From assembly GCA_032622095.1 (NCBI GenBank), contig CP136063.1, forward strand, positions 41,018,106-41,082,105: a stretch of 64,000 bases of DNA, given 5' to 3'. Position numbers and translations under genes: made by a program. This stretch comes from Siphonodentalium dalli (taxonomy: Eukaryota; Mollusca; Scaphopoda; Gadilida; Siphonodentaliidae). Positions 2,402 to 56,431 of the stretch are shown one piece after another. The notes below the pieces were generated by a model. It was not told the DNA's origin. It searched no databases and was given only the letters and a program-made list of their open reading frames with translations. Position 1 is the first letter of the stretch; each line of letters opens with the position of its first letter.

Positions 2402-2929
2402 TTAAAGGTGGATTATCTCTTTGTAAACATTTATTATATAGTTACCGGGGTATAAAATATTAGATTTGAATCGAAGACTCCTGTCCGGAAATGCTTCTGT
2501 CGATTAATATTAATTTTATTTCGAATATTTTCTGGTCTAAAAAGGTGTGTTTGTTCAGCTAACGAACAATAGTGGCTACTGTTAACAGAGACCAGAAATT
2601 ATATTGTGCAATTTTGTCACAAATAAACGTTAATTATACTCATTGTCGCTTATATCTGTGGAAGAAAACAATAGAAACAACCAATCTGTGACATTTGTCA
2701 TTCGTTGCGTAGCTGTAGGAACAGCCCAGTGCTCTATATCGCAATACGGTCTCATCCGAATGGTCGGTTCTAAAAATAGTAACATAAACGGGCCCGATTT
2801 AATATTCGAAATAAAATCGATATTAATTGATAGAAGCTTTTCCGGACATAGGTCTTCAGTTCATATCTATTATTTTATACCCACGCAACTATTTAAAATT
2901 TGTTATTTAAAGAGATAATCCATCTTTAA
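2402..2929 (+). mobile_element. T1 element, full length (reference copy)
   Basis: This 528-bp unit (counting both TTAAs) starts TTAA-AGGTGGATTATCTC and ends GAGATAATCCATCT-TTAA. The ends are long imperfect inverted repeats: the left ~125 bases and the reverse complement of the right ~135 bases align through TAGTTNCNNGGGTATAAAAT, CTGAAGACC/CGAAGACTC, TGTCCGGAAA, CTTCTATC and TTTATTTCGAATATT. There is no transposase, so it is non-autonomous (MITE-like). TTAA targeting is characteristic of the piggyBac superfamily; assignment to it is inference. An 86-codon open frame common to the family is present here from about 2661 to 2918, without an ATG at its usual first codon. It abuts another copy 15 bases away. 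Confidence 0.93.
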
Positions 2930-2944
2930 AAAGATAATCCATCT

Positions 2945-3472
2945 TTAAAGGTGGATTATCTCTTTGTAAACATGTATTATATAGTTACCGGGGTATAAAA
3001 TATTAGATTTGAATCGAAGACTCCTGTCCGGAAATGCTTCTATCGATTAATATTAATTTTATTTCGAATATTTTCTGGTCTAAAAAGGTGTGTTTGTTCA
3101 GCTAACGAACAATAGTGGTTACTGTTAACATAGACCAGAAATTATATTGTGCAATTTTGTCACAAATAAACGTTAATTATACTCATTATCGCTTATATCT
3201 GTGGAACAAAACAATACAAACAACCAATCTGTGACATTTGACATTCGTTGCGTAGCCGTGGGAACAGCCCAGTGCTCTATATCGCAATACGGTCTCATCC
3301 GAATGGTCGGTTCTAAAAATAGTAACATAAATGGGCCCGATTTAATATTCGAAATAAAATCAATATTAATTGATAGAAGCTTGTCCGGACATAGGTCTTC
3401 AGTTCATATCTATTATTTTATACCCACACAACTATTTAAAATTTGTTATTTAAAGAGATAATCCATCTTTAA
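2945..3472 (+). mobile_element. T1 element, full length
   Basis: It is nearly identical to the previous copy and lies in the same orientation, separated by a 15-base right-end scrap. The open frame at 3201-3461 is intact but opens with GTG (CTGTGGAACAA) rather than ATG. Confidence 0.93.
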
Positions 3473-3601
3473 TGATGGATTATCGAAATGAAATCAATAT
3501 TAATTTACAGAATCGTTTCCGGGCAGGGATTTCCAAGTATTATTTCATACCCAGGAAACTTTCTAAGCAAAAAATTATTTAAAAAGATAATCCATCTTTA
3601 A
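3469..3601 (+). mobile_element. Internally deleted T1 relative
   Basis: TTAATGATGGATTATC at the left is joined directly to an old-subfamily right end (GACAGAATCGTTTCCGGGCA-like) and ends AAGATAATCCATCTTTAA. It shares its left TTAA with the end of the preceding copy. Confidence 0.7.
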
Positions 3602-4005: not shown

Positions 4006-4533
4006 TTAAAGATGGATTATCTCTTTAAATAACAAATTTTAAATAGTTGCGTGGGTATTAAATAATAGATATGAACTGAAGACCTATGTCCGGAAAAGCT
4101 TCTATCAAATAATATTTATTTTATTTCGAATATTAAATCGGGCCCATTTATGTTACTATTTTTAGAACCGACCATTCGGATGAGACCGTATTGCGATATA
4201 GAGCACTGGGCTGTTCCTACGGCTACGCAACGAATGTCAAATGTCACAGATTGGTTGTTTGTACTGTTTTGTTCCACAGATATAAGCGATAATGAGTATA
4301 ATTAACGTTTATTTGTGACAAAATTGCACAATATAATTTCTGGTCTCTGTTAACAGTAACCAATATTGTTCGTTAGCTGAACAAACACACCTTTTTAGAC
4401 CAGAAAATATTCGAAATAAAATTAATATTAATCGATAGAAGCATTTCCGGACAGGAGTTTTCGATTCAACTCTAATATTTTATACCCCGATAACTATATA
4501 ATACATGTTTACAAAGATATAATCCACCTTTAA
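4006..4533 (-). mobile_element. T1 element, full length, minus
   Basis: It is a 528-bp copy with TTAA on both sides. The family open frame is interrupted because a TCA serine codon has become TAA in the right terminal repeat (AAATAAATATT instead of AAATCAATATT on the minus strand). Confidence 0.92.
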
Positions 4534-4545: not shown

Positions 4546-4702
4546 TTAAAGATGGATTATCTCTTTAAATAACAAATTTCTCTTTGTAAACATGTATTAT
4601 ATAGTTACCAGGGTATAAAATATTAGATTTGAATCGAAGACTACTGTCCGGAAATGCTTCTATCGATTAATATTAATTTTATTTCGAATATTTTCTGGTC
4701 TA
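4546..4702 (+). mobile_element. Chimeric T1 fragment
   Basis: About 30 bases of a T1 right end (TTAAAGATGGATTATCTC, read outward-in) are fused to a T1 left end from CTCTTTGTAAACATG to TTTTCTGGTCTAA, where homology stops. This is evidence for recombination or template switching between T1 ends. Confidence 0.75.
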
Positions 4703-5519
4703 ATGTGTCGCATTCAACACACATGGAGCAATTTACGTCAAAAATTTACTAGTTTATGCTGCCATATCCTCTGGATATGTGGCTTGAAACCGATAGTTAC
4801 GATTATTTGTATTCGATATGTACTGCATTGTAAATTCTGCATTGATTGTAAACAAAGGACAAATCGCAGAAGAAAACAGTTGCAAACACGGAAACTACAA
4901 GCTGTCAGTACTAGATATGAACGGGGGAAAACAGAGTGTATTACTTATACTGTATGATGACGATAACGTCGATAAGATTTGATAATATACCCAATGCCTT
5001 TGATGAATATTCTCGTATTTTCGCTAGAAAATAACAGAATCACGCTGAAGAATATCAATTTGCAAAATGAAGCTGAAGGATTTCGTCAGTTCTCGATAGA
5101 TCGCGAGATTTCGCTAAAAAAGCACAATTTCATGTCCATTAAATATAGATCAATGATTAGACTGATCGGGAAAGAAGATATACGACGAAAGTACTGTCGA
5201 CCTTATTGCTCTAAAAGGTACATGTAGACTGTCTAGCCATCTATCGTTTAACGAATGGTGCTACTAAACAAAACCACATAATGAGACGCATGTTAATTTA
5301 GCAAAATACGGTATTTCCATTGTTCTTTTATCTACTTGAAAATCGATTGATACGTGATGATTCCTTTTCATGAACGATATAATTACAGTAACACTGTGTT
5401 AATGGAATTCGGTTCGAAATAGATAAGATCCCCCCTATCTTTAGACTACCGGTTCACGATATTTACAGCGGATATACTGACCAACTCCGCATGATGGGAG
5501 ATGATAAACTGGATGTCCA
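4703..5519. other. Unannotated
   Basis: Two short open frames (4703-4957 and 4979-5227, +) have no recognisable domain and I do not claim them as genes. No repeat structure was obvious. Confidence 0.4.
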
Positions 5520-5849: not shown

Positions 5850-7596
<1,747 letters not shown>

Positions 7597-7800
7597 CGCA
7601 CTGATATCGGCGATCGCCTGAGCGGACTCTGTTACATGTCACTATGTCACTGTTCTCGGCGAATGATTTTTCACACATACCTCACAGATCTATAAGGATG
7701 ATTATATGTGTGAATTCAGATTTCACAATCGGGCAAATAGTTTCTCACATATATCGCACTGATATGGCAGGTCACGTGTGGATTGTATCTATGTGCAGTC
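7597..7800 (-). pseudogene. Degenerate 5' fingers of array A
   Basis: The minus strand shows two or three eroded fingers ([13 protein letters not shown] is legible, followed by a stop). Related eroded fingers precede array B at 11520-11850. Confidence 0.65.
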
Positions 7801-8759: not shown

Positions 8760-8934
8760 CATGTGCATGTCCCATTCAGTGCTTAATCATGATTACAATA
8801 GTTTACATATCCCATTCAGGATTTTATTATGATTACAATAGTTTGACTATAGTTCACTGTGTTATATATAATGCCAGTAACATGTATTATTATACGCCAG
8901 TTATATAACTACATGTGCGTGGTTTGTGGCAGTG

Positions 8935-9462
8935 TTAAAGATGGATTATCTCTTTAAATAACAAATTTTAAATAGTTGTGTGGGTATAAAATAATAGATA
9001 TGAACTGAAGACCTATGTCCGGAAAAGCTTCTATCAATTAATATTGATTTTATTTCGAATATTAAATCGGGCCCATTTATGTTACTATTTTTAGAACCGA
9101 CCATTCGGATGAGACCGTATTGCGATATAGAGCACTGGGCTGTTCCCACGGCTACGCAACGAATGTCAAATGTCACAGATTGGTTGTTTGTATTGTTTTG
9201 TTCCACAGATATAAGCGATAATGAGTATAATTAACGTTTATTTGTGACAAAATTGCACAATATAATTTCTGGTCTATGTTAACAGTAACCACTATTGTTC
9301 GTTAGCTGAACAAACACACCTTTTTAGACCAGAAAATATTCGAAATAAAATTAATATTAATCGATAGAAGCATTTCCGGACAGGAGTCTTCGATTCAAAT
9401 CTAATATTTTATACCCCGGTAACTATATAATACATGTTTACAAAGAGATAATCCACCTTTAA
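8935..9462 (-). mobile_element. T1 element, full length, in duplicate 2 only
   Basis: The 528-bp copy has TTAA on both sides and an intact family open frame at 8946-9206. Its absence from duplicate 1 shows that it inserted after (or was lost since) the duplication. Confidence 0.94.
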
Positions 9463-9589: not shown

Positions 9590-10003
9590 TATGGGGAAAT
9601 GATTTATTACGCACATCGCACTGGTACGAATGATCACCTAAGTAGATTCTCATATGTGTCTTGAGACTAGTCTGGACGAATGATTCATCACACACATCAC
9701 ACTGATACGGTCGCTCACCTGTGTGAATTCATATTTGTGCTATGAGATGAGATCTCTTGATGACACGGTGTGGATTTTCTAATGTATTATAAGACGATGT
9801 TTCAGGGCGAACGATTTACCAAAAATATCGTACTGATACGGACACTCTTCGGTGTGGATTCTCTTATGTGTCATTAGGTTACCGCTCTGCACGAATGATT
9901 TTTCACATACTTCGCACTGATACGGACACTCTCTGGTGTGGATTCTCTTATGTGTCATTAGGTTACCGCTCTGCGCGAATTATTTTTCACACACATCACA
10001 CTT
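9590..10003 (-). pseudogene. 3' fingers beyond the stop of array B
   Basis: About five C2H2 repeats continue after the TAA that ends array B. They include the shared nonsense TAA at 9980-9982 and further drift, as in 5850-6324. Confidence 0.7.
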
Positions 10004-11860
<1,857 letters not shown>

Positions 11861-12944: not shown

Positions 12945-13505
12945 TCTCATATATATTTTGAAGACCTCTGTCTGTTTGTTTGTCTGTCTGTCTGTATGTT
13001 TGTCTGTATGTTTGTCATTAATACAAATCTACGATTCTCGACCGATCGGGACGAAACTTGGTACGTGTGTGTAGTTTGACCAGGCGGTGGACGTTGTCGT
13101 ATTGGCGAGCCCGTGCAACGCATGCGCAGACGAGATCTCGGAAACGGATGGAGCTATCGACTTGAAATTTGGTATGTGAATGTATCTTGCCCTGGATACG
13201 AATTTTATCGGGTCGCCGAGCCCGTGCGACGCCAGCTTCGCGCATGCGCAGACGAGATCTCGGAAACGGGTGGAGCTATCGACTTGAAATTTGCTATGTG
13301 AATGTATCTTGCCCCGGTTACGAATTTTATCGGGTCGCCGAGCCCGTGCGACGCCAGCTTCGCGCAGACCATATCTCGAAAACGGGTGGAGCTATCGACT
13401 TGAAATTTGGTTTTTGAATAGCCCGGACAACGTCGGGCTGGGTAGAGCTATCGACTTGAAATTTGGTTTTTGAATAGCCCGGACAACGTCGGGCTCATCG
13501 GCTAG
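12945..13505 (+). mobile_element. Helitron-like non-autonomous element H1
   Basis: It begins A|TCTCATATATATTTTGAAGA and ends with a GC-rich hairpin (AGCCCGGACAACGTCGGGCT) seven bases before CTAG|T. A 5' TC, a 3' hairpin and CTRR, with insertion between A and T, are hallmarks of Helitrons. Inside are a TCTG/TTTG-rich microsatellite and three ~121-bp tandem units (GAGCCCGTGCGACGCCAGCT ... GGATACGAATTTTATCGGG). There is no Rep/helicase. Open frames in these units are repeat-derived. Confidence 0.72.
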
Positions 13506-14910: not shown

Positions 14911-15474
14911 TCTCATATATATTTTGAAGACCTGTTTGTTTGTCTGTCTGTCTGTATGTTTGTCTGTCATTTATACAAATCTACGATTCTCGACCGATCG
15001 GGACGAAACTTGGTACGTGTGTGTAGTTTGACCAGGCGGTGGACGTTGTCGTATTGGCGAGCCCGTGCGGCGCCCGCTTCGCGCATGCGCAGACGAGATC
15101 TCGGAAACGGGTGGAGCTATCGACTTGAAATTTGCTATGTGAATGTATCTTGCCCCGGATACGAATTTGATCGGGTCGCCGAGCCCGTGCGACGCCAGCT
15201 TCGCGCATGCGCAGACCAGATCTCGGAAACGGGTGGAGCAATCGACTTGAAATTTGGTATGTGAATGTATCTTGACCCGGATACGAATTTTATCGGGTCG
15301 CCGAGCCCGTGCGATGCCAGCTTCGCGCATGCGCAGACCAGATCTCGGAAACGGGTAGAGCTATCGACCTGAAATTTGGTTTTTGAATAGCCCGGACAAC
15401 GTCGGGCTGGATAGAGCTATCGACTTGAAATTTGGTTTTTGAATAGCCCGAACAACGTCGGGCTCATCGGCTAG
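14911..15474 (+). mobile_element. Helitron-like element H3
   Basis: It has the same TCTCATATATATTTTGAAGA start after an A and the same hairpin plus CTAG end as H1, with three ~121-bp internal units. It is the third copy of one family within 2.5 kb. Confidence 0.72.
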
Positions 15475-15887: not shown

Positions 15888-16415
15888 TTAAAGGTGGATT
15901 ATCTCTTTGTAAACATGTATTATATAGTTACCGGGGTATAAAATATTAGATTTGAATCGAAGACTCCTGTCCGGAAATGCTTCTATCGATTAATATTAAT
16001 TTTATTTCGAATATTTTCTGGTCTAAAAAGGTGTGTTTGTTCAGCTAACGAACAATATTGGTTACTGTTAACAGAGACCAGAAATTATATTGTGCAATTT
16101 TGTCACAAATAAACGTTAATTATACTCATTATCGCTTATATCTGTGGAACAAAACAATACAAACAACCAATCTGTGACATTTGACATTCGATGCGTAGCC
16201 GTAGGAACAGCACAGTGCTCTATATCGCAATACGGTCTCATCCGAATGGTCGGTTCTAAAAATAGTAACATAAATGGGCCCGATTTAATATTCGAAATAA
16301 AATCAATATTAATTGATAGAAGCTTTTCCGGACATAGGTCTTCAGTTCATATCTATTATTTTATACCCACGCAACTATTTAAAATTTGTTATTTAAAGAG
16401 ATAATCCATCTTTAA
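15888..16415 (+). mobile_element. T1 element, full length
   Basis: The 528-bp copy is flanked by TTAA, with an intact family open frame at 16144-16404 (GTG at the first position). It sits in the A/T-rich interior of a Helitron-like element. Confidence 0.93.
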
Positions 16416-17732
16416 AACTTAAAAATTGTCATGTTTCTGACTATTGCCGCCAGTGGCGGGCTAACCTCTTTTGTTATCTTAAATTGTTATCTACTATATA
16501 TTTTGAGAACTCCTTATATGTGTGTGTGTGTATGTGGGTACTTCATAGAATCGAAAACGGCTGGTCGGATCGAGCTCCAATTTCGTATATAAGGGTAAAA
16601 ACCCACAGGGATCGTCGACGTCGCGTTTTGGATAAGCTCTGAGCACTCATTCTCCACTCCCAATCATCAAAATCACCGCAAACGGCACTCCGGGGGTTAA
16701 GGCATCAACGATCTTTATATTGACCATATTTGGAGTTGTTAACCGACCAATGCTCTTTATTGCCATCGACGTTGCTAAACGGTTACCCATGCGTACGAAA
16801 CTACGGATGCAAAATGCGAAATGCATTTATCTCGATTAAAAAGGCAGAATTAACGATTTGGAAAACAATAAATGCGTGTTGTGTGATTCTTATGTCTCTC
16901 GTTCCTAGGAACGGGGGAGATTTTCATCGGGTCAGTTTTTTCCGCCCGATGTACCTTATACCTCTTTTAGGGACGGGTACCATAATTTCTCTTGATTAAA
17001 AGGCAGAATTAACTGATTGAAAAACAAAAAAATGCGTGTTGTGTGATTCTTATGTCTGTCGTTCCTATGAACGGGGGGGGGATTTCATCAGGTCAGTTTT
17101 TCCGCCCGAAAATTCAATTAAAAATTTAATTAAATTTTTTTTTAAACAATTAAATTCAAAAAAATAAATTAAATGTCATGTTTCTGACCAACCACGCAAG
17201 TGGCGGGCTAACCGCCCGAAAATTCAATTAAAAAAATTAATTTAAAAAATTTAAAATTAAAAAACAAAAACAATTAAATTAAAAAAAAAAATTAACGGGG
17301 GAAATTTTCATCGGGTCAGTTTTTTCCGCCCGACGTACCTTAAATCATACCTCTTTTAGGGACAGGTACCATAATTTCTCTTGATTAAAAGGCAGAATTA
17401 ACTCATTCAAAAACAAAAAATGCGTGTTGTGTGATTCTGATGTCTGTCGTTCCTAGGAAGGGGGGGATTTCATAGGGTCAGTTTTTCCGCCCGAAAAAGG
17501 CAGAATTAAAGGTGGATTATCTCTTTGTAAACATGTATCATATAGTTACAGGGGTATAAAATATTAGATTCCTGTCGGGAAATGCTTCTATCGATTAATA
17601 TTAATTTTATTTCGAATATTTTCTGGTCTAAAAAGGTGTGTGTTCAGCTAACGAACAATAGTGGTTACTGTTAACAGAGACCAGAAATTTTATTGTACTG
17701 ATTATCGCTTAGATCTGTGGAACAAAACAATA

Positions 17733-18596
17733 CATTCTCACTAAAAATTGCCTCTAAAATCCGGAACCTCCAAATTCCGGATATCGGACGCGTATGTCAG
17801 TCCATAATTAAGCGAACACTGTGATTATTAGCTCTGAATACCGGACGAGATCGGATGAGATCTCGTATCTGCCGATACGAGATCGGCCGAGACGAGCCGA
17901 GAGTATAGCGATTACGTACTCCAGTATAAGCGGACCATTTAATTAGCGTTCTTTTGTTCGGCGTATGCTTTGAACTGGATTGTAACAACAGGAGTCTGAT
18001 GAGATATCTACGCTCACAGATAGAGAATTAGAGCACTGACATATTGTTTTTGCAACAGCTATTACATCCAGTTAATTGGACTCTGTTTTTACAACCATTG
18101 TCAAAACAATAAATTGCTATAATTGCCCGATGTTGACGTATTGTCAGCATAACAGTTTGAATCTTTCACAATGACTGAGCCTTCACGAAACAGAGTTAAC
18201 ACTAGACCAGAAAGTCAAAGTTATTAAAGATCTCAGCTCAACGCCTAAGCCGACATGCAAAGAACAGAGTGTTAAATATGGCATCGGCAAATCAACGATC
18301 AGCGACATCGGCAAGAATCGAGACAGTTTCTTTCTAAAGTCGGACTAGTTGCACAAATCATGTTCTATATATGTTTTATATAATTTGTTATGTTTGTGTT
18401 TTACATGTACCGGTATTTCGTTCTCGTAATTATTCAATAAATTCTCATTAATCAATAATACAATCTTGGTCATTCTTGGTATTAAACGCCGGCAATATAT
18501 CACCGACGGTGACGCGATTTTCTATAAACCGGACACCTCTCTAAACCGGATGGAAGGGCCGGTCCGAAGGGTGTTCGGTTTAGAGAGGTTTCACTG
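17733..18596 (+). mobile_element. pogo/Tigger-type DNA transposon relic
   Basis: The insertion is bounded by TA on both sides (17731-17732 and 18597-18598), the target of Tc1/mariner/pogo elements. Its right end, read inward on the minus strand, is CAGTGAAACCTCTCTAAACC, the typical pogo/Tigger terminus; the left end (CTAAAAATTGCCTCTAAAATCCGGA) is a diverged version. It keeps a short piece of transposase (18187-18348) and is otherwise deleted. Confidence 0.85.
18187..18348 (+). pseudogene. Pogo transposase N-terminal HTH remnant
   Basis: In the frame beginning at 18187 the translation reads ELTLDQKVKVIKDL, then KEQSVKYGIGKSTISDI, then KNRDSF, ending in TAG at 18346. This is the CENP-B/psq-type helix-turn-helix that binds transposon ends in the pogo family. 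The nearest upstream ATG (18171) is one frame away, so the remnant is broken; the DDE catalytic domain is absent. Confidence 0.85.
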
Positions 18597-18839
18597 TACA
18601 AACAATCAATCTGGGACCTTTGATTTTTGGAGCGTAGCCATAGGAACAGCCCAGTGCTCTATATCGCAATATGGTATCATCCGAATGGTCTGTTCTAAAA
18701 ATAGCAACATAAACGGTCCTGATTTAATATTCGAAATAAAATCAATATTAATTGATAGAAGCTTTTCCAGACAGGGGTCTTCAGTTCATATCTATTATTT
18801 TATACCCACGGAACTATAATCCATCTTTAACTGATTGAA

Positions 18840-19039: not shown

Positions 19040-19246
19040 GAGATGTACACGAATGATTTGTCACAAGTATCGCACTGATATGGACGATCGCCGGTGTGGA
19101 TGATCACGGGTGTGTGTTTTCTTATGATCAGTGACTTGAGATGCAGTAGTAAATGATTTCTCACACGCATCGCACTGATACGGGCGATCGCTGGTGGAGA
19201 ATCGATTAAGTTTCGTTATGGTACTTGTCTCGGAGATTGATTTCTC
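19040..19246 (-). pseudogene. 3' finger remnants beyond array C
   Basis: Two eroded fingers are legible on the minus strand, including YQCDACEKSFTT and a linker [10 protein letters not shown]. They follow the nonsense codon that ends array C and abut the end of the Helitron-like element at 19026. Confidence 0.65.
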
Positions 19247-20875
19247 TCATATATCGCACTGATACGGACGCTCTCCAGAATGGACTCTCTTATGTCTCAT
19301 TAGGCTACTCTTCTGGGTGAAAGATTTCTCACATGTATCGCACTGATACGGACGCTCTCCAGAATGGACTCTCTTATGTTGCATTAGGTTACTCGCCCGG
19401 GTGAATGATTTCTCACATATATCGCACTGATATGGAAGCTTTCCAGAATGGACTCTCTTATGTTTCATTAGGCTACTCTTCTGGGTGAAAGATTTCTCAC
19501 ATATATCGCACTGATACGGACGCTCTCCAGAATGGATACTCTTATGTCTCATTAGGTCACTCATCCGGAGAAATGATTTCTCACATATATCACACTGATA
19601 CGAACGCTCTCCAGAATGGACTCTCTTATGTTTCATTAGGCTACTCTTCTGGGTGAAAGATTTCTCACATATATCGCACTGATACGGATCTCCAAAATGG
19701 ATTCTCTTACGCACAGTTAGATCACTCGTACGGGTGAATGATTTCTGACATATATCGCACTGATACGGACGCTCTCCATAATGGACTCTCTTGTGTCTCA
19801 TTAGGTCACTCATCCGGGTAAATGATTTCTCACACATATCGCATTGATACAGACGCTCTGCAGAATGGATTCTCATATGTCTCATGTGGCTACCCTTCTC
19901 GGTGAATGATTTCTCACATATATCGCACTGATATGGACGCTCTCCATAATGGAGTCTCTTATGCGCCGTTAGGTAACTCGTCTGGGTGAATGATTTTTCA
20001 CATATATCACATTGATATGGACAATCTCCAGAATGGACTCTCTTATGTTGCATTAGGCTACTCGTCTGTGTGAATGATTTCTCACATATATCGCACTGAT
20101 ACGGACGATCTCCAAAATAGACTCTCGTATGATTTATTAGGTGACTCTTCTGGGTGAATGATTTCTGACATATATCGCACTGATACGGACTCTCTCCATA
20201 ATGGACTCTCTTGTGTCTCATTAGGTCACTCATCCGGGTAAATGATTTCTCACACATATCGCATTGATACAGACGCTCTGCAGAATGGATTCTCATATGT
20301 CTCATTTGGCTACCCTTCTCGGTGAATGATTTCTCACATATATCGCACTGATATGGACGCTCTCCATAATGGAGTCTCTTATGCGCCGTTAGGTAACTCG
20401 TCTGGGTGAATGATTTTTCACATATATCACATTGATATGGACAATCTCCAGAATGGACTCTCTTATGTTGCATTAGGCTACTCGTCTGTGTGAATGATTT
20501 CTCACATATATCGCACTGATACGGACGATCTCCAAAATAGACTCTCGTATGATTTATTAGGTGACTCTTCTGGGTGAATGATTTATCACATATATCGCAC
20601 TGATACGGACGATCTCCAGAATGGACTCTCTTATGTCTCAATAGGTCACTCGCCCGGGTGAATGATTTCTCACATATATCGCATTGGTATGGACGCTCTC
20701 CCGTATGGATTTTCGCATGTGTTATCAGATAACTTCTATTGATGAATGATTTTTCACACACATCACACTGATCACACAGGCGATCTCCTGTGCGGATTCT
20801 CGTAGGCCTATGTGACCTATGTGCTTGCATGTCACTGTCAGTGGACTGCACTCTGCGTGTGCGTTCCTCATACAT
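19247..20875 (-). CDS. C2H2 zinc-finger array C, 18 fingers
   Basis: The frame from the ATG at 20875 (VMYEER context) encodes about 542 residues: a ~36-residue leader including QSTDSDMQ, then 18 C2H2 fingers of the form [10 protein letters not shown]....L..HKRVHSGERP. It is expected to be a nuclear DNA-binding protein; no effector domain is visible. Fingers 3-7 and 8-12 are a 420-bp tandem duplication with only two base differences that I could see. Fingers 3 and 8 have tyrosine (TRVYFG) and finger 13 arginine (VRKRIHF) at a zinc histidine. The frame ends in TGA where the next finger would have TGT (cysteine). The leader and upstream sequence match array D, so the start is shared by two paralogues and is probably real. 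Confidence 0.82.
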   Translation of the reverse strand: MYEERTRRVQSTDSDMQAHRSHRPTRIRTGDRLCDQCDVCEKSFINRSYLITHAKIHTGERPYQCDICEKSFTRASDLLRHKRVHSGDRPYQCDICDKSFTQKSHLINHTRVYFGDRPYQCDICEKSFTQTSSLMQHKRVHSGDCPYQCDICEKSFTQTSYLTAHKRLHYGERPYQCDICEKSFTEKGSQMRHMRIHSAERLYQCDMCEKSFTRMSDLMRHKRVHYGESPYQCDICQKSFTQKSHLINHTRVYFGDRPYQCDICEKSFTQTSSLMQHKRVHSGDCPYQCDICEKSFTQTSYLTAHKRLHYGERPYQCDICEKSFTEKGSHMRHMRIHSAERLYQCDMCEKSFTRMSDLMRHKRVHYGERPYQCDICQKSFTRTSDLTVRKRIHFGDPYQCDICEKSFTQKSSLMKHKRVHSGERSYQCDICEKSFLRMSDLMRHKSIHSGERPYQCDICEKSFTQKSSLMKHKRVHSGKLPYQCDICEKSFTRASNLMQHKRVHSGERPYQCDTCEKSFTQKSSLMRHKRVHSGERPYQCDI

Positions 20876-21708: not shown

Positions 21709-22236
21709 TTAAAGGTGGATTATCTCTTTGTAAACATGTTTTATATAGTTACCGGGGTATAAAATATTAGATCTGAATCAAAGACTATTGTCCAGAAATG
21801 CTTCTATCGATTAATTTTAATTTTATTTCGAATATTTTCTAGTCTAAAAAGGTGTAGCTGTTTAACTAACGAACAATAGTGGTTACTGTTAACAGAGACC
21901 AGAAATTTTATTGTACAATTTTGTCACAAATAAACGTTAATTATACTTATTATCGGTTTTAACTATGGAACAAAACAATAAAAACAATCAATCTGGGACA
22001 TTTGACTTTCGGTGCGTAGCCGTAGGAACAGCCCAGTGCTCTATATCGCAACACGGTCTCATCCGAATGGTCGGTTCTAAAAATAGTAACATAAACGGGC
22101 CCGATTTAATATTCGAAATAAAATCAATATTAATTGATAGAAGCTTTTCCGGACATAGGTCTTCAGTTCATATCTATTATTTTATACCCACGCAACTATT
22201 TAAAATTTGTTATTTAAAGAGATAATCCATCTTTAA
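21709..22236 (+). mobile_element. T1 element, full length, ATG-bearing copy
   Basis: The 528-bp copy has TTAA ends. The family open frame at 21965-22225 starts with a true ATG (ACTATGGAACAA); nearly all other intact copies have CTGTGGAACAA. It is also more diverged (NKNNQSGTFDF), so it may represent an older state. Confidence 0.93.
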
Positions 22237-22708: not shown

Positions 22709-23233
22709 TTATAGGTGGATTATCTCTTTGTAAACATGTATTATATAGTTACCGGGGTATAAAATATTAGATTTGAATCGAAGACTCCTGTCCGGAAATG
22801 CTTCTATCGATTAATATTAATTTTATTTCGAATATTTTCTGGTCTAAAAAGGTATGTTTGTTCAGCTAACGAACAATAGTGGTTACTGTTAACAGAGACC
22901 AGAAATTATATTGTGCAATTTTGTCACAAATAAACGTTAATTATACTCATCGCTTATATCTGTGGAACAAAACAATACAAACAACCAATCTGTGATATTT
23001 GACATTCGATGCGTAGCCGTAGGAACAGCACAGTGCTCTATATCGCAATACGGTCTCATCCGAATGGTCGGTTCTAAAAATAGTAACATAAATGGGCCCG
23101 ATTTAATATTCGAAATAAAATCAATATTAATTGATAGAAGCTTTTCCGGACATAGGTCTTCAGTTCATATCTATTATTTTATACCCACGCAACTATTTAA
23201 AATTTGTTATTTAAAGAGATAATCCATCTTTAA
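22709..23233 (+). mobile_element. T1 element, full length, half of an inverted pair
   Basis: The 525-bp copy has TTAT on the left (mutated TTAA) and TTAA on the right. The family open frame is at 22962-23222. Confidence 0.92.
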
Positions 23234-23263
23234 AATGTGTTATTTAAAGAGATAATCCATTCT
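23234..23263 (+). mobile_element. T1 right-end scrap between paired copies
   Basis: GTGTTATTTAAAGAGATAAT followed by CCATTCT is a third, partial T1 right end between the two facing copies. Confidence 0.75.
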
Positions 23264-23791
23264 TTAAAGATGGATTATCTCTCTAAATAACAAATTTTAA
23301 ATAGTTGCGTGGGTATAAAATAATAGATATGAACTGAAGACCTATGTCCGGAAAAGCTTCTATCAATTAATATTGATTTTATTTCGAATATTAAATCGGG
23401 CCCATTTATGTTACTATTTTTAGAACCGACCATTCGGATGAGACCGTATTGCGATATAGAGCACTGGGCTGTTCCTGCGGCTACGCAACGAATGTCAAAT
23501 GTCACAGATTGGTTGTTTGGACTGTTTTGTTCCACAGATATAAGCGATAATGAGTATAATTAACGTTTATTTGTGACAAAATTGCACAATATAATTTCTG
23601 GTCTCTGTTAACAGTAACCACTATTGTTCGTTAGCTGAACAAACACACCTTTTTAGACCAGAAAATATTCGAAATAAAATTAATATTAATCGATAGAAGC
23701 ATTTCCGGACAGGAGTCTTCGATTCAAATCTAATATTTTATACCCCGGTAACTATATAATACATGTTTACAAAGAGATAATCCACCTTTAA
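23264..23791 (-). mobile_element. T1 element, full length, second half of inverted pair
   Basis: The 528-bp minus-strand copy faces the preceding one, right end to right end. The open frame is at 23275-23535. Confidence 0.93.
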
Positions 23792-26302: not shown

Positions 26303-26641
26303 TTAAAGGTGGATTATCTCTTTGTAAACATGTATTATATAGTTACCGGGGTATAAAATATTAGATTTGCATCGAAGACTCCTGTCCGGAAAGGCTTCTA
26401 TCGATTAATATTCATTTTATTTCGAATATTTTCTGACATAAAAAGGTATGTTTGTTCAGCTAACGAACAATAGTGGTTACTGTTAACAGAGACCAGAAAT
26501 TTTATTGTACAATTTTGTCACAAATAAACGTTAATTATACTTATTAGCGCTTATATCTGTGGAACAAAACAATACAAACAATCAATCTGGGACATTTGAC
26601 TTTCGGTGCGTAGCCATAGGAACACCCCAGTGCTCTATATT
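26303..26641 (+). mobile_element. T1 element, 3'-truncated, fused to array D
   Basis: It begins at TTAA with a complete left terminal repeat and stops inside the element at CCCAGTGCTCTATATT, where zinc-finger sequence starts. Its antisense strand supplies the last 19 codons and stop of array D. Confidence 0.9.
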
Positions 26642-27751
26642 GAATGATTTCTGACATATATCGCACTGATACGGACGCTCTCCAGAATGGACTCTCTTAT
26701 GTTTCATTAAGTCACTCATCCGGGTAAATGATTTCTCACACATATCACATTGATACAGACGCTCTCCCGAATGGATTATCTTATGGTTCACTAGGCTATT
26801 CTTCTGGGAGAATGATTTTTCACATATATCGCAATGATATGGACGATCCCCAGAATGGACTCTCTTATGTTTCATTAGGTTACCCTTCTCGGTGAATGAT
26901 TTCTCACATATATCGCACTGATACGGTCGGTCTCCAGAATGGATTCTCTTATGGCTCATTAGGCTACTATTCTGGCTGAATGATTTTTCACATATATCGC
27001 ACTGATACAGACGATCTCCAGAATGGACTCTCTTATGTCTCATTAGGTGACTCGTGTGGGTGAATGATTTCTCACATATATCACATTGATACGGACACTC
27101 TCCAGAATGGATTCTCTTATGTGCCGTTAGGGTGCTATTCTGGGCGAATGATTTTTCACATACATCGCACTGATACGGACGATCTCCAGAATGGACTCTC
27201 TTATGTCTCATTAGTTTACTCAAATGGGTGAATGATTTCTCACATATATCGCACTGATACGGACGCTCTCCAGAATGGACTCTCTTATGGGCCGTTAGGC
27301 TACTCGTCTGCGCGAATGATTTCTCACATATATCACATTGATACGGACGCTCTCCAGAATGAACTCTCTTATGTTTTATTAGGGTACTCTTCTCGCCGAA
27401 TGATTTCTCACATATATCGCACTGATACGGACGCTCTCCAGAATGGACTCTCTTATGTCTCATTAGGTGACTCGTGTGGATGAATGATTTCTCACATATA
27501 TCGCACTGATACGGACGCTCTCCAGAATGGACTCTCTTATGTCTCATTAGGTGACTCGTGTGGATGAATGATTTCCCACATATTCCGCACTGATACGGAC
27601 GATCTCCAGAATCAATACAGACGATCGCCTGTGTCGATTCTGGTATGAGCTCGCATGTCACTGTCTGTGGACTGCAGTCTGTGTGGATTCTCGTATGTAC
27701 TTGCATGTCACTGTCAGTAGACTGCAGTCCGTGTGGGCTTTCCTCAGACAT
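26582..27751 (-). CDS. C2H2 zinc-finger array D with a T1-derived tail
   Basis: From the ATG at 27751 the frame encodes about 389 residues: a ~52-residue leader (MSEESPHG, QSTDSDMQ) related to that of array C, 11 complete fingers of type [21 protein letters not shown], then a half finger ending CQKSF. The final 19 residues (NIEHWGVPMATHRKSNVPD) are read from antisense T1 sequence, which also gives the stop. The fingers show no internal stop or missing zinc ligand that I could find, making this the cleanest array in the window. The role is presumably nuclear DNA binding; no effector domain is visible. If transcribed, it would be a zinc-finger protein truncated and ended by a transposon. Confidence 0.82.
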   Translation of the reverse strand: MSEESPHGLQSTDSDMQVHTRIHTDCSPQTVTCELIPESTQAIVCIDSGDRPYQCGICGKSFIHTSHLMRHKRVHSGERPYQCDICEKSFIHTSHLMRHKRVHSGERPYQCDICEKSFGEKSTLIKHKRVHSGERPYQCDICEKSFAQTSSLTAHKRVHSGERPYQCDICEKSFTHLSKLMRHKRVHSGDRPYQCDVCEKSFAQNSTLTAHKRIHSGECPYQCDICEKSFTHTSHLMRHKRVHSGDRLYQCDICEKSFSQNSSLMSHKRIHSGDRPYQCDICEKSFTEKGNLMKHKRVHSGDRPYHCDICEKSFSQKNSLVNHKIIHSGERLYQCDMCEKSFTRMSDLMKHKRVHSGERPYQCDICQKSFNIEHWGVPMATHRKSNVPD

Positions 27752-27873
27752 CACACCCGAGTGGACAATCAGGTTTTAAGATTTCCCCAAATTCCGAATA
27801 ATTCTCCGCTTATCGGACTCGTATGGGAATCGGATTCACGGACAAAATTCCTCTCTTCCGCACCAAAGTACCG
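27752..27873. other. Immediate 5' flank of array D
   Basis: GGTTTTAAGATTTCCCCAAA and TTATCGGACTCGTATGGG are shared with the array C flank. Conservation between paralogues makes this a plausible 5' UTR or promoter; no motif proves it. Confidence 0.45.
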
Positions 27874-31036: not shown

Positions 31037-31564
31037 TTAAAGGTTGATTATCTCTTTGTAAACATGTATTATATAGTTACCGGGGTATAAAATATTAGAT
31101 TTGAATCGAAGACTCCTGTCCGGAAATGCTTCTATCGATTAATATTCATTTTATTTCGAATATTTTCTGGTCTAAAAAGGTGTGTTTGTTCAGCTAACGA
31201 ACAATAGTGGTTACTGTTAACAAAGACCAGAAATTATATTGTGCAATTTTGTCACAAATAAACGTTAATTATACTCATTATCGCTTATATCTGTGGAACA
31301 AAACAATACAAACAACCAATCGGTGACATTTGACATTCGTTGGGTAGCCGTAGGAACAGCCCAGTTCTCTATATCGCAATACGGTCTAATCCGAATGGTC
31401 TGTTCTAAAAATAGTAACATAAACGGGCCCGATTTAATATTCGAAATAAAATCAATATTAATTGATAGAAGCTTTTCCGGACATAGGTCTTCAGTTAATA
31501 TCTATTATTTTATACCCACGCAACTATTTAAAATTTGTTATTTAAAGAGATAATCCATCTTTAA
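31037..31564 (+). mobile_element. T1 element, first half of a back-to-back pair
   Basis: The 528-bp copy has its open frame at 31293-31553. Its right TTAA (31561-31564) is also the first TTAA of the next, inverted copy. Confidence 0.94.
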
Positions 31565-32088
31565 AGATGGATTATCTCTTTAAATAACAAATTTTAAATA
31601 GTTGCGTGGATATAAAATAATAGATATGAACTGAAGACCTATGTCCGGAAAAGCTTCTATCAATTAATATTGATTTTATTTCGAATATTAAATCGGGCCC
31701 ATTTATGTTACTATTTTTAGAACCGACCATTCGGATGAGACCGTATTGCGATATAGAGCACTGTGCTGTTCCTACGGCTACGCATCGAATGTCAAATGTC
31801 ACAGATTTGTTGTTTGTATTGTTTTGTTCCACAGATAAAAGCGATAATGAGTATAATTAACGTTTATTTGTGACAAAATTGGACAATATAATTTCTGGTC
31901 TCTGTTAACAGTAACCAATATTGTTCGTTAGCTGAACAAACACACCTTTTTAGACCAGAAAATATTCGAAATAAAATTAATATTAATCGATAGAAGCATT
32001 TCCGGACAGGAGTCTTCGATTCAAATCTAATATTTTAAACCCCGGTAACTATATAATACATGTTTACAAAGAGATAATCCACCTTTAA
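31561..32088 (-). mobile_element. T1 element, second half of a back-to-back pair
   Basis: The 528-bp minus copy shares a single TTAA with the preceding one, so the two form a ~1,050-bp palindrome. The open frame at 31572-31832 is intact. Confidence 0.94.
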
Positions 32089-34338: not shown

Positions 34339-34866
34339 TTAAAGGTGGATTATCTCTTTGTAAACATGTATTATATAGTTACCGGGGTATAAAATATTAG
34401 ATTTGAATCGAAGACTCCTGTCCGGAAATGCTTCTATCGATTAATATTAATTTTATTTCAAATATTTTCTGGTCTAAAAAGGTGTGTTTGTTCAGCTAAC
34501 GAACAATAGTGGTTACTGTTAACAGAGACCAGAAATTATATTGTGCAATTTTGTCACAAATAAACGTTAATTATACTCACTATCGCTTATATCTGTGGAA
34601 CAAAACAGTACAAACAACCAATCTGTGACATTTGACATTCGTTGCGTAGCCGTAGGAACAGCCCAGTGCTCTATATCGCAATACGGTCTCATCCGAATGG
34701 TCGGTTCTAAAAATAGTAACATAAATGGGCCCGATTTAATATTCGAAATAAAATCAATATTAATTGATAGAAGCTTTTCCGGACATAGGTCTTCAGTTCA
34801 TATCTATTATTTTATACCCACGCAACTATTTAAAATTTGTTATTTAAAGAGATAATCCATCTTTAA
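34339..34866 (+). mobile_element. T1 element, full length
   Basis: The 528-bp copy has TTAA on both sides and the open frame at 34595-34855 intact. Confidence 0.94.
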
Positions 34867-35202: not shown

Positions 35203-35730
35203 TTAAAGATGGATTATCTCTTTAAATAAATTTTTTTAAATAGTTGCGTGGGTATAACATAATAGATATGAACTGAAGACCTTTGTCCGGAAAAGCTTCT
35301 ATCAATTAATATTGATTTTATTTCGAATATTAAATCGGGCCCATTTATGTTACTATTTTTAGAACCGACCATTCGGATGAGACCGTATTGCGATATAGAG
35401 CACTGGGCTGTTCCTACGGCTACGCAACGAATGTCAAATGTCACAGACTGGTTGTTAGTATTGTTTTGTTCCACATATATATGCGATAATGAGTATAATT
35501 AACGTTTATTTTTGACAAAATTGCACAATATAATTTCTGGTCTCTGTTAACAGTAACCACTATTGTTCGTTAGCTGAACTAGCACACCTTTTTAGACCAG
35601 AAAATATTTGAAATAAAATGAATATTAATCGATAGAAGCATTTCCGGACAGGAGTCTTCGATTCAAATCTAATATTTTATACCCCGGTAACTATATAATA
35701 CATGTTTACAAAGAGATAATCCACCTTTAA
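35203..35730 (-). mobile_element. T1 element, full length, minus
   Basis: The 528-bp copy has TTAA ends; the open frame at 35214-35474 is intact with a changed tail (PTQLFKKIYLKR). Confidence 0.93.
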
Positions 35731-36631: not shown

Positions 36632-37144
36632 TTAAAGATAAATTATCTCACAATTTGAAATAGTAAATATGGATTGAAGACCCTTGTCCGGAATCCCTTC
36701 CATCAATTAATATTGATTTTATTTCGAATATTTTATTACAAAATGAGATAATTAATTGGGACCATTTATTTGTCTATTTTTGGAACAGACCATTCAGGCG
36801 ATACCATATATCGATAGAGATCATTAGGCTGTTCCCATATCTACGTAATGAACGTCAAATGTCCCAGATTGATTGTTTGCATTGTTTTATTGCAAAGCTA
36901 TAATGAGTCTACTTAATGTTTATTTGTGACAAAATTACACAATACATTTGCTCTTCTCTGTTAGCAGTAACCACTGTTGTTCGTTATCTAAACAACCACA
37001 CTTTTTGAGACATGAAATTATTCGCAATACGATCAATATTAATCGATAGAAGCTTTTGCGGACAGGATTCTTTGATTCATAACTAATTTGTTATACCCCG
37101 GTAACTATATATCACATGTTTACAAAGAGATAAACCATCTCTAA
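36632..37144 (-). mobile_element. T1 element, old diverged subfamily
   Basis: A full-length but diverged copy runs from TTAAAGATAAATTATCTC to AACCATCTCTAA. It keeps the long inverted ends but differs at many positions; the family open frame is lost. The right flank (37145-37201) matches 1145-1202, so this and the fragment at 895-1138 are related by duplication of the locus and not only by transposition. Confidence 0.82.
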
Positions 37145-37197
37145 TTTCCCATTAGCCATCGTTATGATCAACTCGGGATGACGATAGACAAGCTGTG

Positions 37198-37300
37198 TTA
37201 AAGGTGGATTATCTCTTTGTAAACATGTTTTGTATAGTTACTGGGGTATAACATATTGGATTTGAATCGAAGAGTCCTGTCCGGAAATGCTTCTATCGAT
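37198..37300 (+). mobile_element. T1 left-end fragment
   Basis: A left terminal repeat starts at TTAA (37198-37201) and stops after CTTCTATCGAT, where it joins a minus-strand right end. The TTAA target is intact and empty at 1199-1202. Confidence 0.85.
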
Positions 37301-38319
37301 TTTAAATAGTTGCGTGGTTATAAAATAATGATATGAACTGAAGACCCATGTCCGGAAAAGCTTCTATCAATTAATATTGATTTTATTTCGAATATTAAAT
37401 CGGGACCGTTCATGTTACTATTTTCAGAACAGACCATTCGGATGATACCATATTGCGATATAGATGAGTGGGCTGTTCCTACGGCTACGTAACAAAAGTC
37501 AAATGTCACAGATTGGTTGTTTGTATTGTTTTGTTCCACAGATATAAGCGCTAATAAGTATAATTAACGTTTATTTATGACAAAATTGTTACATAAAATG
37601 TCTGGTCTCAGTAAAAGATGGATTATCTCTTTTAAATAACAAATTTTAAATAGTTGCGTGGGTATAAAATAATAGATATGAACTGAAGACCTATGTCCGG
37701 AAAAGCTTCTATCAATTAATATTGATTTTATTTCGAATATAAAATCGGGCCCGTTTATGTTACTATTTTTAGAACCGACCATTCGGATGAGACCGTATTG
37801 CGATATAGAGCACTGGGCTGTTCCCACGGCTACGCAACGAATGTCAAATGTCACAGATTGGTTGTTTGTATAGTTTTGTTCCAACGATATAAGCGATAAT
37901 GAGTATAATTAACATATATTTGTGACAAAATTGCATAATATAATTTCTGGTCTCTGTTAACAGTAACCACAATTGTTCGTTAGCTGAACAAACACACCTT
38001 TTTAGACCAGAAAATATTCGAAATAAAATTAATATTAATAGATAGAAGCATTTCCGGACAGGAGTCTTCGATTCAAATCTAATATTTTATACCCCGGTAA
38101 CTATATAATACATGTTTACAAAGAGATAATCCACCTTTAACGGTAACCACTATTGTTCGTTAGCTGAACAAACACACCTTTTTAAACCAGAAAATAATCG
38201 AAATAAAATTAATATTAATCGATAGAAGCATTTCCGAACAGGAGTCTTCGATTCAAATCTAATATTTTATACCCCGGCAACTATATAATACATGTTTACA
38301 AAGAGATAATCCACCTCTA
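37301..38319 (-). mobile_element. T1 host copy interrupted by another T1
   Basis: The two parts, 37301-37611 and 38137-38319, are collinear minus-strand T1 sequence split at the internal GTTAAC site (GTCTCAGTA ... TTAACGGTAACCAC). The open frame is truncated (37318-37539). The inserted copy is 37612-38140. Confidence 0.82.
37612..38140 (-). mobile_element. T1 element inserted into T1
   Basis: A 529-bp full copy, with TAAA on the left (altered TTAA) and TTAA on the right, occupies the internal TTAA of an older copy in the same orientation. The open frame (37564-37884) reads on past the element end. Confidence 0.88.
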
Positions 38320-39066
38320 ATCATGATTACAATAGTTTGCTTGTCCCATTCAGAACTTTACCTAGATAGCAATAGTTTGCATGCCCCCTTCAGGACCATT
38401 ACCATGATTACAAGTGTGCATGTCCCATTCAGGACTTTACCATGATTACAACAGTTTGCATGTCCCATTTGGGACTTTATCATGAATACGATAGTGAGCA
38501 TGTCCCATTTAGGACTTTATCATGATTACAATAGTGAGCATGTCCCATTCATGATTTGATTATGATTACAATAGTTTGTATGTCCCATTCAGGACTTTAT
38601 TATGATTACAATAGTTTGTATGTCCCATTCAGGATTTTATTATGATTACAATAGTTTGCATGTCCCATTCAGGACTTTACCTAGATAGCAATAGTTTGCA
38701 TGCCCCCTTCAGGACCATTACCATGATTACAAGTGTGCATGTCCCATTCAGGACTTTACCATGATTACAACAGTTTGCATGTCCCATTTGGGACTTTATC
38801 ATGAATACGATAGTGAGCATGTCCCATTTAGGACTTTATCATGATTACAATAGTGAGCATGTCCCATTCAGGATTTTATTATGATTACAATAGTTTGTAT
38901 GTCCCATTCAGGACTGTATTATGATTACAATAGTTTGTATGTCCCATTCAGGATTTTATTATGATTACAATAGTTTGCATGTCCCATTCAGGACTTTATT
39001 ATGATTACAATAGCTTGCATGTCCCATTCAGGATTTTATAATGATTCCAATAGTTTGCATGTCCCA
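38320..39066 (+). repeat. Minisatellite, 40-bp unit, ~18 copies, 319-bp higher-order repeat
   Basis: The unit is GTCCCATTCAGGACTTTATT, then ATGATTACAATAGTTTGCAT. An eight-unit block starting near CCTAGATAGC (38361) recurs at 38680 with the same order of unit variants. Single units of the same type lie at 5545-5595 and 8765-8835. In all three places the repeat lies on the 3' side of an HTGERP-type finger array. Confidence 0.92.
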
Positions 39067-39489
39067 TTCAGGACTTTACCACGCACATCGCAATGATACT
39101 GGCGATCGCCTGTGTGGATTGTCTTATGTGGTATTAGACTATCTTTCACGGCGAACGATTTACCACAAATATCGCACTGATACGGACGCTCTCCGGTGTG
39201 GAGTTTCTTATGTGTCATTATGTTACCGCTCTGCGCGAATGATTTTTCACACACTTCGTAATGATACGGACACTCTCCAGTGAGTTCTCTTATGTGTCAA
39301 TAGGTTACCGCTCTGCGCGAATGATTTTTCACACACTTCACACTGATATGAACAATCGCCGGTGTGGAGTCTCTTATGTGCCATGCGCTCACAGTTCCGA
39401 GAGAATGATTTCTCACACGCATTGCACTGTTATGGGCGCTCTCGGGTGTGGATTGTCTTATATGTCATTAGGTTACTGTTCTGTGCGAA
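39036..39489 (-). pseudogene. 3' fingers of array E, frame-broken
   Basis: About five fingers follow the stop of array E. One stretch (39036-39254) is open for two and a half fingers ([15 protein letters not shown].. and CGKSFAVKDSL..) and then runs into the minisatellite, which replaces the end of the gene. Confidence 0.72.
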
Positions 39490-40275
39490 TTATTTATCAC
39501 ACACTTCACACTGATACGGACGATCGCCGGTGTGGATTGTCTTATGTGCAATCAGGTTATTGCTCTGTGCGAATGATTTATCACACACTTTGCACTGGTA
39601 CGGACGCTCTCCGGTGTGTAGTCTATTGTGATCCATCAGGCTACTGTTCCGTGCAAATGATTTCTCACACACATCGCACTTATACGGACGCAACTCTCCG
39701 ATGTGGAGTCTCTTGTGGTCCATCAGGCTTTTGCTCAGTGTGAATGATTTCTCACACAAATCGCACTTATGCGGACGCTCTCCGGTGTGGATTGTCTTAT
39801 GTGTTATCAGACGATGTTTCATGGAGAAAGATTGACCACAAATATCGCACTGATACGGACGCCCTCCGGTGTGGACTGTCTTATGTGCAATTAGGTTACT
39901 GCTCTGTGCGAATGATTTATCACACACTTTGCACTGGTGCGGACGCTCTCCGGTGTGGAGTCTCTTGTGATCCATCAGGCTACTGCTCTGTGAAAATGAT
40001 TTCTCACACACTTCGCACTTATACGGACGCTCTCCGGTGTGGACTCTCTTATGTGTTATTAGGCTACCGTTCTGTGAGAATGATTTCTCACACACATCGC
40101 ACTTATATGGACGATCGCCGGTGTGGAGTCTCTTATGACTTCTTAGGCTACTGTAATGTGCAAATGATTTCTCACACACATCGCAAAAATGCGGACGATC
40201 GCCGGTGTGGACTCTCTTATGTAACATGAGTGCCTCACCATACTTATTCCTGGAAATAAATTGGCATTTCCACAA
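39490..40275 (-). CDS. C2H2 zinc-finger array E
   Basis: The open frame of 261 codons contains eight good C2H2 fingers of HTGERP type, a degenerate first finger (CQFISRNKYGEALMLHK) and a half finger at the end. There is no ATG at its beginning; the first methionine is at 40227, in the first finger. Finger 7 has a lengthened linker (HIGELRP), which would alter spacing on DNA. The frame ends with TAA at 39490-39492 in place of the usual TCA serine of CDKSF, the same kind of change as in arrays A and B but in a different finger. It is likely a nuclear DNA-binding protein, truncated or already a pseudogene. Confidence 0.72.
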   Translation of the reverse strand: MWKCQFISRNKYGEALMLHKRVHTGDRPHFCDVCEKSFAHYSSLRSHKRLHTGDRPYKCDVCEKSFSQNGSLITHKRVHTGERPYKCEVCEKSFSQSSSLMDHKRLHTGERPHQCKVCDKSFAQSSNLIAHKTVHTGGRPYQCDICGQSFSMKHRLITHKTIHTGERPHKCDLCEKSFTLSKSLMDHKRLHIGELRPYKCDVCEKSFARNSSLMDHNRLHTGERPYQCKVCDKSFAQSNNLIAHKTIHTGDRPYQCEVCDK

Positions 40276-40920: not shown

Positions 40921-41221
40921 AAAATAGTTGCGTGGGTATAAAATAATAAATATGAACTGAATACCCCTGTCCAGAAAAGCTTCTATCAATTAATATTGAT
41001 TTTATTTCGAATATTTAATTGGGACCGTTTATGTGTCTATTTTAAGAACAGACCATTCGGGTGATACCATATTGCGATATAGAGCATGAGGACATTCCTA
41101 TGGCTACACACCCAATGTCAAATGTCCCAGATTGATTGGTTGTATTGTTTTATTCCATAGTTATAAGCGATAATTAACGTATATTTGTGACAAAATTGTA
41201 CAATACAATTTCTGGTCTTTG
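40921..41221 (-). mobile_element. T1 right-half fragment, old subfamily
   Basis: A diverged right half lacks the outer ~30 bases and ends at TCTGGTCTTTGTTA, directly at the start of a full copy. On the minus strand the family frame begins ATGGAATAA, i.e. with an immediate stop. Confidence 0.8.
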
Positions 41222-41749
41222 TTACAGATGGATTATCTCTTTAAATAACAAATTTTAAATAGTTGCGTGGGTATAAAATAATAGATATGAACTGAATACC
41301 CATGTCCGGAAAAGCTTCTATCAATTAATATTGATTTTATTTCGAATATTAAATCGGGACCGTTCATGTTACTATATTTAGAACAGATCATTCGGATGAT
41401 ACCATATTGCGATATAGAGCACTGGGCTGTTCCTACGGCTACGCAACGAAATTCAAATGTCACAGATTGGTTGTGTGTATTGTTTTGTTCCACAGATATA
41501 AGCGATAATGAGTATAATTAACGTTTATTTGTGACAAAATTGCACAATATAATTTCTGGTCTCTGTTAACAGTAACCACTATTGTTCGTTAGCTGAACAA
41601 ACACACCCTTTTAGACCAGAAAATATTCGAAATAAAATTAATATTAATCGATAGAAGCATTTCCGGACAGTAGTCTTCGATTCAAATCTAATATTTTATA
41701 CCCTGGTAACTATATAATACATGTTTACAAAGAGATAATCCACCTTTAA
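41222..41749 (-). mobile_element. T1 element, full length, minus
   Basis: The copy has TTAC on the left (altered TTAA) and TTAA on the right. The open frame at 41233-41493 is intact despite several differences from the consensus (KYSNMNGP, GHGYSVH). It has inserted at the internal GTTAAC of the flanking old copy. Confidence 0.92.
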
Positions 41750-41978
41750 CGTTTATTTGGGACAAAATTGTTACATAAAATTTCTGATCTCTGTTAACGG
41801 TAACCACTATTGTTCGTTACCTGAACAAACACACCTTTTTAGACTAGACAATATTCGAAATAAAAATTAATATTAATCGATAGAAGCATTTCCGGACAGG
41901 AGTCTTCCATTCAGATATAATATTTTATACCCCGGTAACTATATAATACATGTTTACAAAGAGATAATCCACCTTTAA
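41746..41978 (-). mobile_element. T1 half-element bounded by TTAA
   Basis: The 233-bp left half runs from the internal TTAACGTTTATT to the terminal CACCTTTAA. An equivalent piece with the same boundary lies at 62116-62347. Confidence 0.85.
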
Positions 41979-41984: not shown

Positions 41985-42600
41985 CAGACTGGTCATGAAT
42001 CCTACGGTAAATAATGCTGTCGCCAGCAAACAGTCTTAGAGAGCTATGTTTCAGATAAGTGTGGAAGTCATTGATATAGAGCAGGAAGAGTATGGGGTCA
42101 AGGACAAATCCTGGCGAACCCCAGAGGTTACTGGAATATGAGAGGAAGAGTGTCCTTCGGTGAGTACAGATTGGGTCCTACCATGTAGGAAACTGGAGAT
42201 CCAATCACAGACTTGAGAGTTAATGCCGTAATAATTTAACTTGTAGATGAGGCGTCGGTGAGGAACGTTGTCAAATACTTTTGCAAAGTCCATTATGATT
42301 ATGTCGGTTAGTATGGATTTATTATCATTCTCAGAGATTTCTTGTATAAAGTCAATAAGTTGGGTTTCGCAGGAACGTTTTCTTGGAAGCCATGTTGTTT
42401 ATTGTAGAGAATATTATTTGTTTCAAGGAAAGTCATTGTTTTGCTACTGGTGATGTGTTCAAGGATTTTGCATGAGATGCAGGTGAGGGATATTGGGCGG
42501 TAGTTAATGGGGTCATTTTTGTTGCCCTTTTTTGAAGATTGGTCTGATAATCGCGGTCTTCCAGTCTTGGTACCGGTATGACTGAAAGATATTCGAACCA
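41985..42600 (-). pseudogene. Non-LTR retrotransposon reverse-transcriptase fragment
   Basis: On the minus strand, NYRPISLTCISCKILEHI (near 42500) and DFAKVFDNVPHRRLIYKL (near 42280), followed by SGVRQDLSLTP-type sequence, match the conserved middle of LINE reverse transcriptases (the AFDxVPH and SGVPQGS blocks). Frames are broken by several indels and the YADD catalytic block is not intact; neither the endonuclease nor the 3' end is present. The style is Jockey/CR1-like, but I cannot fix the clade. It would have copied element RNA into DNA at the target site. Confidence 0.85.
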
Positions 42601-55321: not shown

Positions 55322-55348
55322 GCGAACTTGGTGTCTTTTTCTGTCAAT

Positions 55349-56379: not shown

Positions 56380-56431
56380 CGCCCTGTTTCACTGTTGTCT
56401 GAAAAGTCTGGATCTGATTTGCCAGAATGAG

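Follow-up and report, generated by a model that had tools for sequence, protein, structure and literature searches.

A MITE-like family in a scaphopod genome, probably of Kolobok type, with TTAA as target and long asymmetric inverted ends

The tetranucleotide TTAA serves as insertion target for more than one superfamily of transposable elements, Sola3 among them. Kolobok and piggyBac elements both use this target and differ in their termini: Kolobok ends, as described in PMC9587614, follow a 5′-RR/YY-3′ rule, while the piggyBac hallmark is CC[C/T]T, which is needed for transposition according to PMC2872659. In the account of Xenopus given by PMC6004289, ten full-length Kolobok elements all carry AG ends, and the T2-MITE ends in AGGRR. 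TTAA-flanked MITEs have also been assigned to piggyBac, as in PMC2872659.

The stretch of DNA analysed here (the window, 64,000 nucleotides of Siphonodentalium dalli) carries a family, T1, whose unit is 524 bp plus TTAA. It is read here, with a probability of about 0.8, as a non-autonomous, MITE-like DNA transposon of Kolobok type, a placement made from end structure, as compared with published descriptions. BLAST with the copy at 2402 detects 15 near-full copies (7 on the plus and 8 on the minus strand), which occupy 12.4% of the window. There are also 16 partial pieces, and the share reaches 19.2% once fragments, an element called B, the derivative of B and a diverged block at 49245 are added. 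The end motif TTAAAGRTGGATTATCTYTTT, with up to five mismatches, occurs 51 times in the window, against 0, 2, 4, 0 and 6 times in five Markov-simulated windows. High abundance of T1 across the genome is plausible.

Twelve of the 15 copies are 528 bp long with both end tetranucleotides included, the remaining three measuring 525, 529 and 529 bp. The initial annotation had named 12 copies of 528 bp, and all 12 were recovered at their coordinates: on the plus strand 2402-2929, 2945-3472, 15888-16415, 21709-22236, 31037-31564 and 34339-34866, and on the minus strand 4006-4533, 8935-9462, 23264-23791, 31561-32088, 35203-35730 and 41222-41749. To these are added 22709-23233 (plus, 525 bp), 37612-38140 (minus, 529 bp) and 45320-45848 (minus, 529 bp). 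T1 is short, gene-less, uniform in length and bounded by inverted ends, as MITEs are. The initial description was right in this respect, and right too about the TTAA target and about inverted ends that are long and differ between left and right. The duplicated target, common to Kolobok and piggyBac MITEs, is readily recognised: TTAA is intact at 27 of 30 ends, and at both ends of 12 copies, including 2402. One-base changes at one end are seen in 22709 (TTAT on the left), 37612 and 41222 (TTAC). Duplications other than TTAA in most copies, which had been named beforehand as evidence against the family, are not what is found.

The superfamily is read from the bases that lie inside the target. 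AG stands directly inside TTAA at all 30 ends of the 15 copies, in agreement with the 5′-RR…YY-3′ rule of Kolobok, with T and A as outermost bases in every copy. The left end reads AGGTGGAT in 13 of 15 copies and AGGTTGAT and AGGTGGGA in the other two, and the right end reads AGATGGAT in all 15. The initial annotation had taken T1 for a piggyBac-type MITE, which would be moved by a piggyBac transposase. The TTAA duplication is common to both superfamilies, and PMC2872659 does place TTAA MITEs in piggyBac; however, CC[C/T]T, the motif that the same source describes as a hallmark needed for transposition, is present at 0 of 30 ends, and AG, the published Kolobok pattern, at 30 of 30. The likely superfamily is consequently corrected from piggyBac to Kolobok, piggyBac being left as a decidedly improbable home for the family. 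With this correction, the unusual length of the terminal repeats by piggyBac standards no longer carries weight. Two narrower Kolobok groups do not accommodate T1 either, since its ends, AGGTG/AGATG, come close to the AGGRR of T2-MITE but do not equal it, and since they are inverted, without the long terminal direct repeats around a coding interior that define KolobokP.

The inverted ends are as long as had been proposed (about 130 bp). In each of the 15 copies the left end aligns with the right at 77-82% identity across 131-134 columns, and past ~140 bp agreement drops to about 10 of 20 columns. BLAST self-matches at the T1 ends are inverted, and the single-strand fold of one copy is far better than those of shuffles (z -15.3), as expected of inverted ends. 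The two end sequences first quoted, GTTACCGGGG on the left and GTTGCGTGGG on the right, are correct for the consensus. Each inverted end is tripartite: the 17-bp terminus is followed by sequence of lower similarity and then by a block of ~80 bp.

It had also been proposed that each end is separately conserved, and this holds for most of the older blocks. On the left, the blocks of 45320, 37144, A and 61613 are 11-14% away from the T1 left block and 19-25% from the right one. On the right, the blocks of 45320, 61613, F, 41016 and 37396 are 2-18% away from the T1 right block and 13-24% from the left, each being nearer to the right. Two blocks are ambiguous, the right block of 37144 (22 versus 23%) and the left block of element B (34 versus 34%), and many support values in the block tree are low. 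Given these side-specific blocks in older copies, the left/right difference most likely predates the recent burst of T1, and left and right ends would mostly form separate lineages. Most simply, the fixed difference was inherited from an ancestor whose ends had already diverged, with no homogenisation since.

Conservation of the ~80-bp block relative to the interior is clearest in element B (1905-2401, plus), where the end block occurs at left and right alike. The left terminus of B is unrecognisable, so its left limit is approximate. Compared with T1, the block of B differs at 31 of 147 positions (21%) and the interior at 141 of 258 (55%; p = 3e-11), a comparison affected by the fact that the interior of B may not be homologous to T1 at all. 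With one definition of the interior for all copies, 45320 shows 10 differences in 165 block positions and 33 in 264 interior positions (p = 0.03); under the same definition, excess conservation is not significant for 61613 (p = 0.08), 21709 (p = 0.14) and 37144 (p = 0.70). Leaving out consensus positions 131-180 gives p = 0.03 for 61613. These sequence comparisons, that of element B above all, suggest that the block matters for transposition.

Insertion is best documented by nesting. The copy at 37612-38140 lies within an older T1 (37299-37611 and 38141-38320), at an internal TTAA (consensus 181-184). When it is removed in silico and the flanks are joined, the older T1 is restored over 498 columns at 94% identity, and the joint is a TTAA with no base lost or added. 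The left flanking tetranucleotide is now TAAA and the other TTAA, so the duplication is deduced from one changed and one intact tetranucleotide. The copies at 31037 and 31561 stand back to back with a single TTAA in common (31561-31564), as expected if one entered the flanking TTAA of the other. The copy at 41222 is flanked by older T1 pieces (40922-41221 and 41746-41978) that overlap by ~48 bp (consensus 185-232), and this is not a simple nested insertion. By reading of the sequence, the copy at 2945 sits at the terminal TTAA of element B and the copy at 2402 occupies a TTAA close to B's right end. The copy at 22709 is followed by an extra right-end piece (23230-23267).

Nine of the 15 copies have another T1-like piece no more than 40 bp away. 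Such adjacency and nesting might be expected if the copies were a local satellite or an artefact of segmental duplication and not mobile. The likelihood of this explanation is nevertheless negligible, as the copies occur in mixed orientation, the nested copy at 37612 can be removed to leave a continuous host, and the flanks differ between copies. In comparisons of 200-bp flanks (E≤1e-4), matches are confined to T1-like pieces, to the overlapping flanks of neighbours and to one 21-bp match, which falls inside a 40-bp tandem repeat present in two places. The flanks being otherwise unrelated, the T1 copies are separate insertions. Frequent nesting moreover fits the supply of targets: T1-like sequence holds 199 of the 509 TTAA sites in the window, the copies themselves being counted, which makes this a loose null. 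With this share, special self-targeting by T1 does not have to be invoked.

Older and broken relatives accompany the near-full copies. Two are extensive, at 36658-37144 (minus; consensus 1-474, 79% identical) and at 61613-62107 (plus; consensus 50-528, 78% identical), and a diverged end block is found at 49245-49371 (plus; E = 2.5e-13). A short TTAA-bounded piece at 3469-3601 (minus) is related to the right end of element B and, by reading, is a deletion derivative. Fragments on the plus strand lie at 17506-17734 (consensus 1-274 with deletions), 18597-18830 (consensus 271-491, joined by reading to the outermost bases of the right terminus), 26303-26640 (consensus 1-338) and 37198-37301 (consensus 1-104, stopping at an internal TTAA). 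On the minus strand, 62113-62347 (consensus 1-235) breaks off no more than 3 bp from the internal TTAA at consensus 229-232, and 900-1138 starts as a left-end fragment (consensus 2-183) and continues into a further partial left end. The piece at 4546-4703 (plus) is chimeric: 34 bp of right terminus are fused to left-end sequence (consensus 15 to 139), a joint that template switching in the course of repair could produce. At 900-1180 and at 36990-37190, diverged T1 left ends are followed by non-T1 flank that, by eye, reads alike in both places, which suggests an older segmental duplication.

Some of these breakpoints fall close to an internal TTAA. This is so, within 3 bp, for 12 of 20 internal breakpoints (p = 4e-6), for 10 of 18 when the clean nested pair is left out, and for 8 of 16 when the joint of 41222 is also left out (site cover 0.146, p = 9e-4; reached by 10 of 519 rotations). 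Among 28 tetramers compared as controls, AAAA performs better than TTAA (p = 2e-4), and 5 of the 16 breakpoints cluster at a single spot, consensus 491-498. A preference of fragment ends for internal TTAA is suggestive only. Nested insertion followed by rearrangement would explain fragments that end at TTAA, and use of false ends by the transposase is a possible origin as well.

What the sequence shows directly is the unit size, the TTAA on both sides, the removable nested copy, the AG/CT termini, the inverted ends and the unrelated flanks; cut-and-paste is the presumed pathway. The enzyme would be a DDD/E transposase of Kolobok type, encoded elsewhere, with the 17-bp terminus AGRTGGATTATCTCTTT as its recognition sequence; the ~80-bp block found at both ends would probably be recognised too, as a putative binding site. 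After a cut beside the TTAA flanks, the 524-bp unit would be inserted at a new TTAA, which would thereby be duplicated. An extension of this scheme would treat the two-part ends (a 17-bp terminus and an 80-bp block kept while the interior is replaced) as an extended Kolobok-type recognition site, the same enzyme sometimes taking an internal TTAA as a false end. The internal TTAA located 33 bp inside the right end would be used in particular. TTAA-bounded remnants of such events could include 23230-23267 and, by reading, 62116-62347. This extended scheme is speculative and, as a whole, unlikely.

T1 itself does not provide the enzyme. Young copies repeatedly contain two open frames (94 and 76 aa). 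Pfam, searched at E up to 0.1, matches neither of those in copy 2402, and 45320 and 61613 have no listed frame that reaches 75 aa; protein coding by T1 is rejected. Outside ten masked repeat regions, the window has 117 stop-to-stop frames of 75 aa or more, and the 19 of them searched with Pfam, with one zinc-finger ORF in addition, revealed no transposase. Matches above the curated cut-offs were to reverse transcriptase, RNase H and gag, and the zinc-finger ORF matched C2H2 families with several cross-matches. ARAGORN, run with bacterial settings, found no tRNA in the window, and Rfam gave no match there at gathering thresholds. With no transposase in the frames scanned, and with a TTAA duplication and RR ends that are compatible with it, membership in another TTAA-inserting superfamily (Sola3, or one still unnamed) has to be considered. 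It appears quite unlikely, as the AG…CT ends fit the Kolobok rule published in PMC9587614.

As to age, the copies fall into a compact group and two outliers. In 13 of 15 copies the distance to the consensus is 0.57-3.22%, the lowest value being that of 15888, whereas 21709, an older copy, stands at 5.1% and 45320, the most diverged, at 10.1%. An alignment of the 13 is variable at 88 of 534 columns, and a variant is common to two or more copies in only 11 of these columns, the pattern of a burst from few sources. The T1 family is a recent amplification on top of an older lineage.

The surroundings of T1 are themselves rich in repeats. Six arrays of 84-bp units (6081-7677, 9807-11663, 19152-20772, 26641-27612, 39075-40222 and 43701-44694) contain open frames, the longest of 545 aa, whose translations look like C2H2 zinc fingers, as Pfam indicated for the one searched; the arrays read as a cluster of related zinc-finger genes among which T1 copies are scattered. 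One zinc-finger frame, 26582-27754 (minus), enters the truncated T1 at 26303-26640, and its last residues and stop codon (26582-26640) come from T1. A broken LTR-type retroelement at 54839-58352 (minus) has gag, reverse transcriptase and RNase H domains in Pfam. A reverse transcriptase fragment at 42054-42655 (minus), with RVT_1 above the cut-off in one frame and below it in the adjoining frame, looks like a non-LTR element. Two related tandem arrays of 122-bp and 56-bp units (13119-13495 and 15058-15464) lie in the most G+C-rich part of the window. A 40-bp tandem unit has the same reading at 38320-39081 and 8766-8844, and the long array of this unit adjoins an old T1 left end.

Four 13-base strings from the T1 ends had no match in the literature text searched, and title-level searches found none on these ends. 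Exact scans of viral contigs with two T1 end patterns gave 0 matches each. A 16-base pattern hit at least 120 stretches and a 21-base pattern 4 in genome contigs; blastn of the T1 consensus against these fetched loci returned short matches only, none above 43 columns (best E 9e-4). The contig collections scanned are viral or prokaryotic, and such results have little bearing on animals.

What the locus offers is a young family and its older relatives side by side in one window. If the partner transposase is found, the end blocks compared across subfamilies could define the ends that a Kolobok-type enzyme needs; otherwise T1 is ordinary genome content. Apart from the superfamily, it looks like an ordinary representative of a known element type.

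T1 may be compared with three described systems. The Xenopus T2-MITE, as presented in PMC6004289, resembles T1 in being non-autonomous, in using TTAA as target, in carrying AGG at one end, and in having many copies and an old lineage with recent activity; it differs in its termini (AGGRR, against AGGTG/AGATG in T1), the two being compared by description only. The non-autonomous KolobokP elements and solo LTDRs of PMC9587614 have, like T1, RR/YY ends and adjacent copies, but in that description they combine long direct repeats with an internal region and make duplications of 3-5 bp with no strong target preference, whereas T1 has inverted ends only and uses TTAA. The coral CMITEs, of piggyBac type according to PMC2872659, are also TTAA-flanked MITEs with some adjacent copies; unlike T1, they are ~100 bp long, have CC[C/T]T ends and, in the first eight found, inverted repeats of 13-14 bp.
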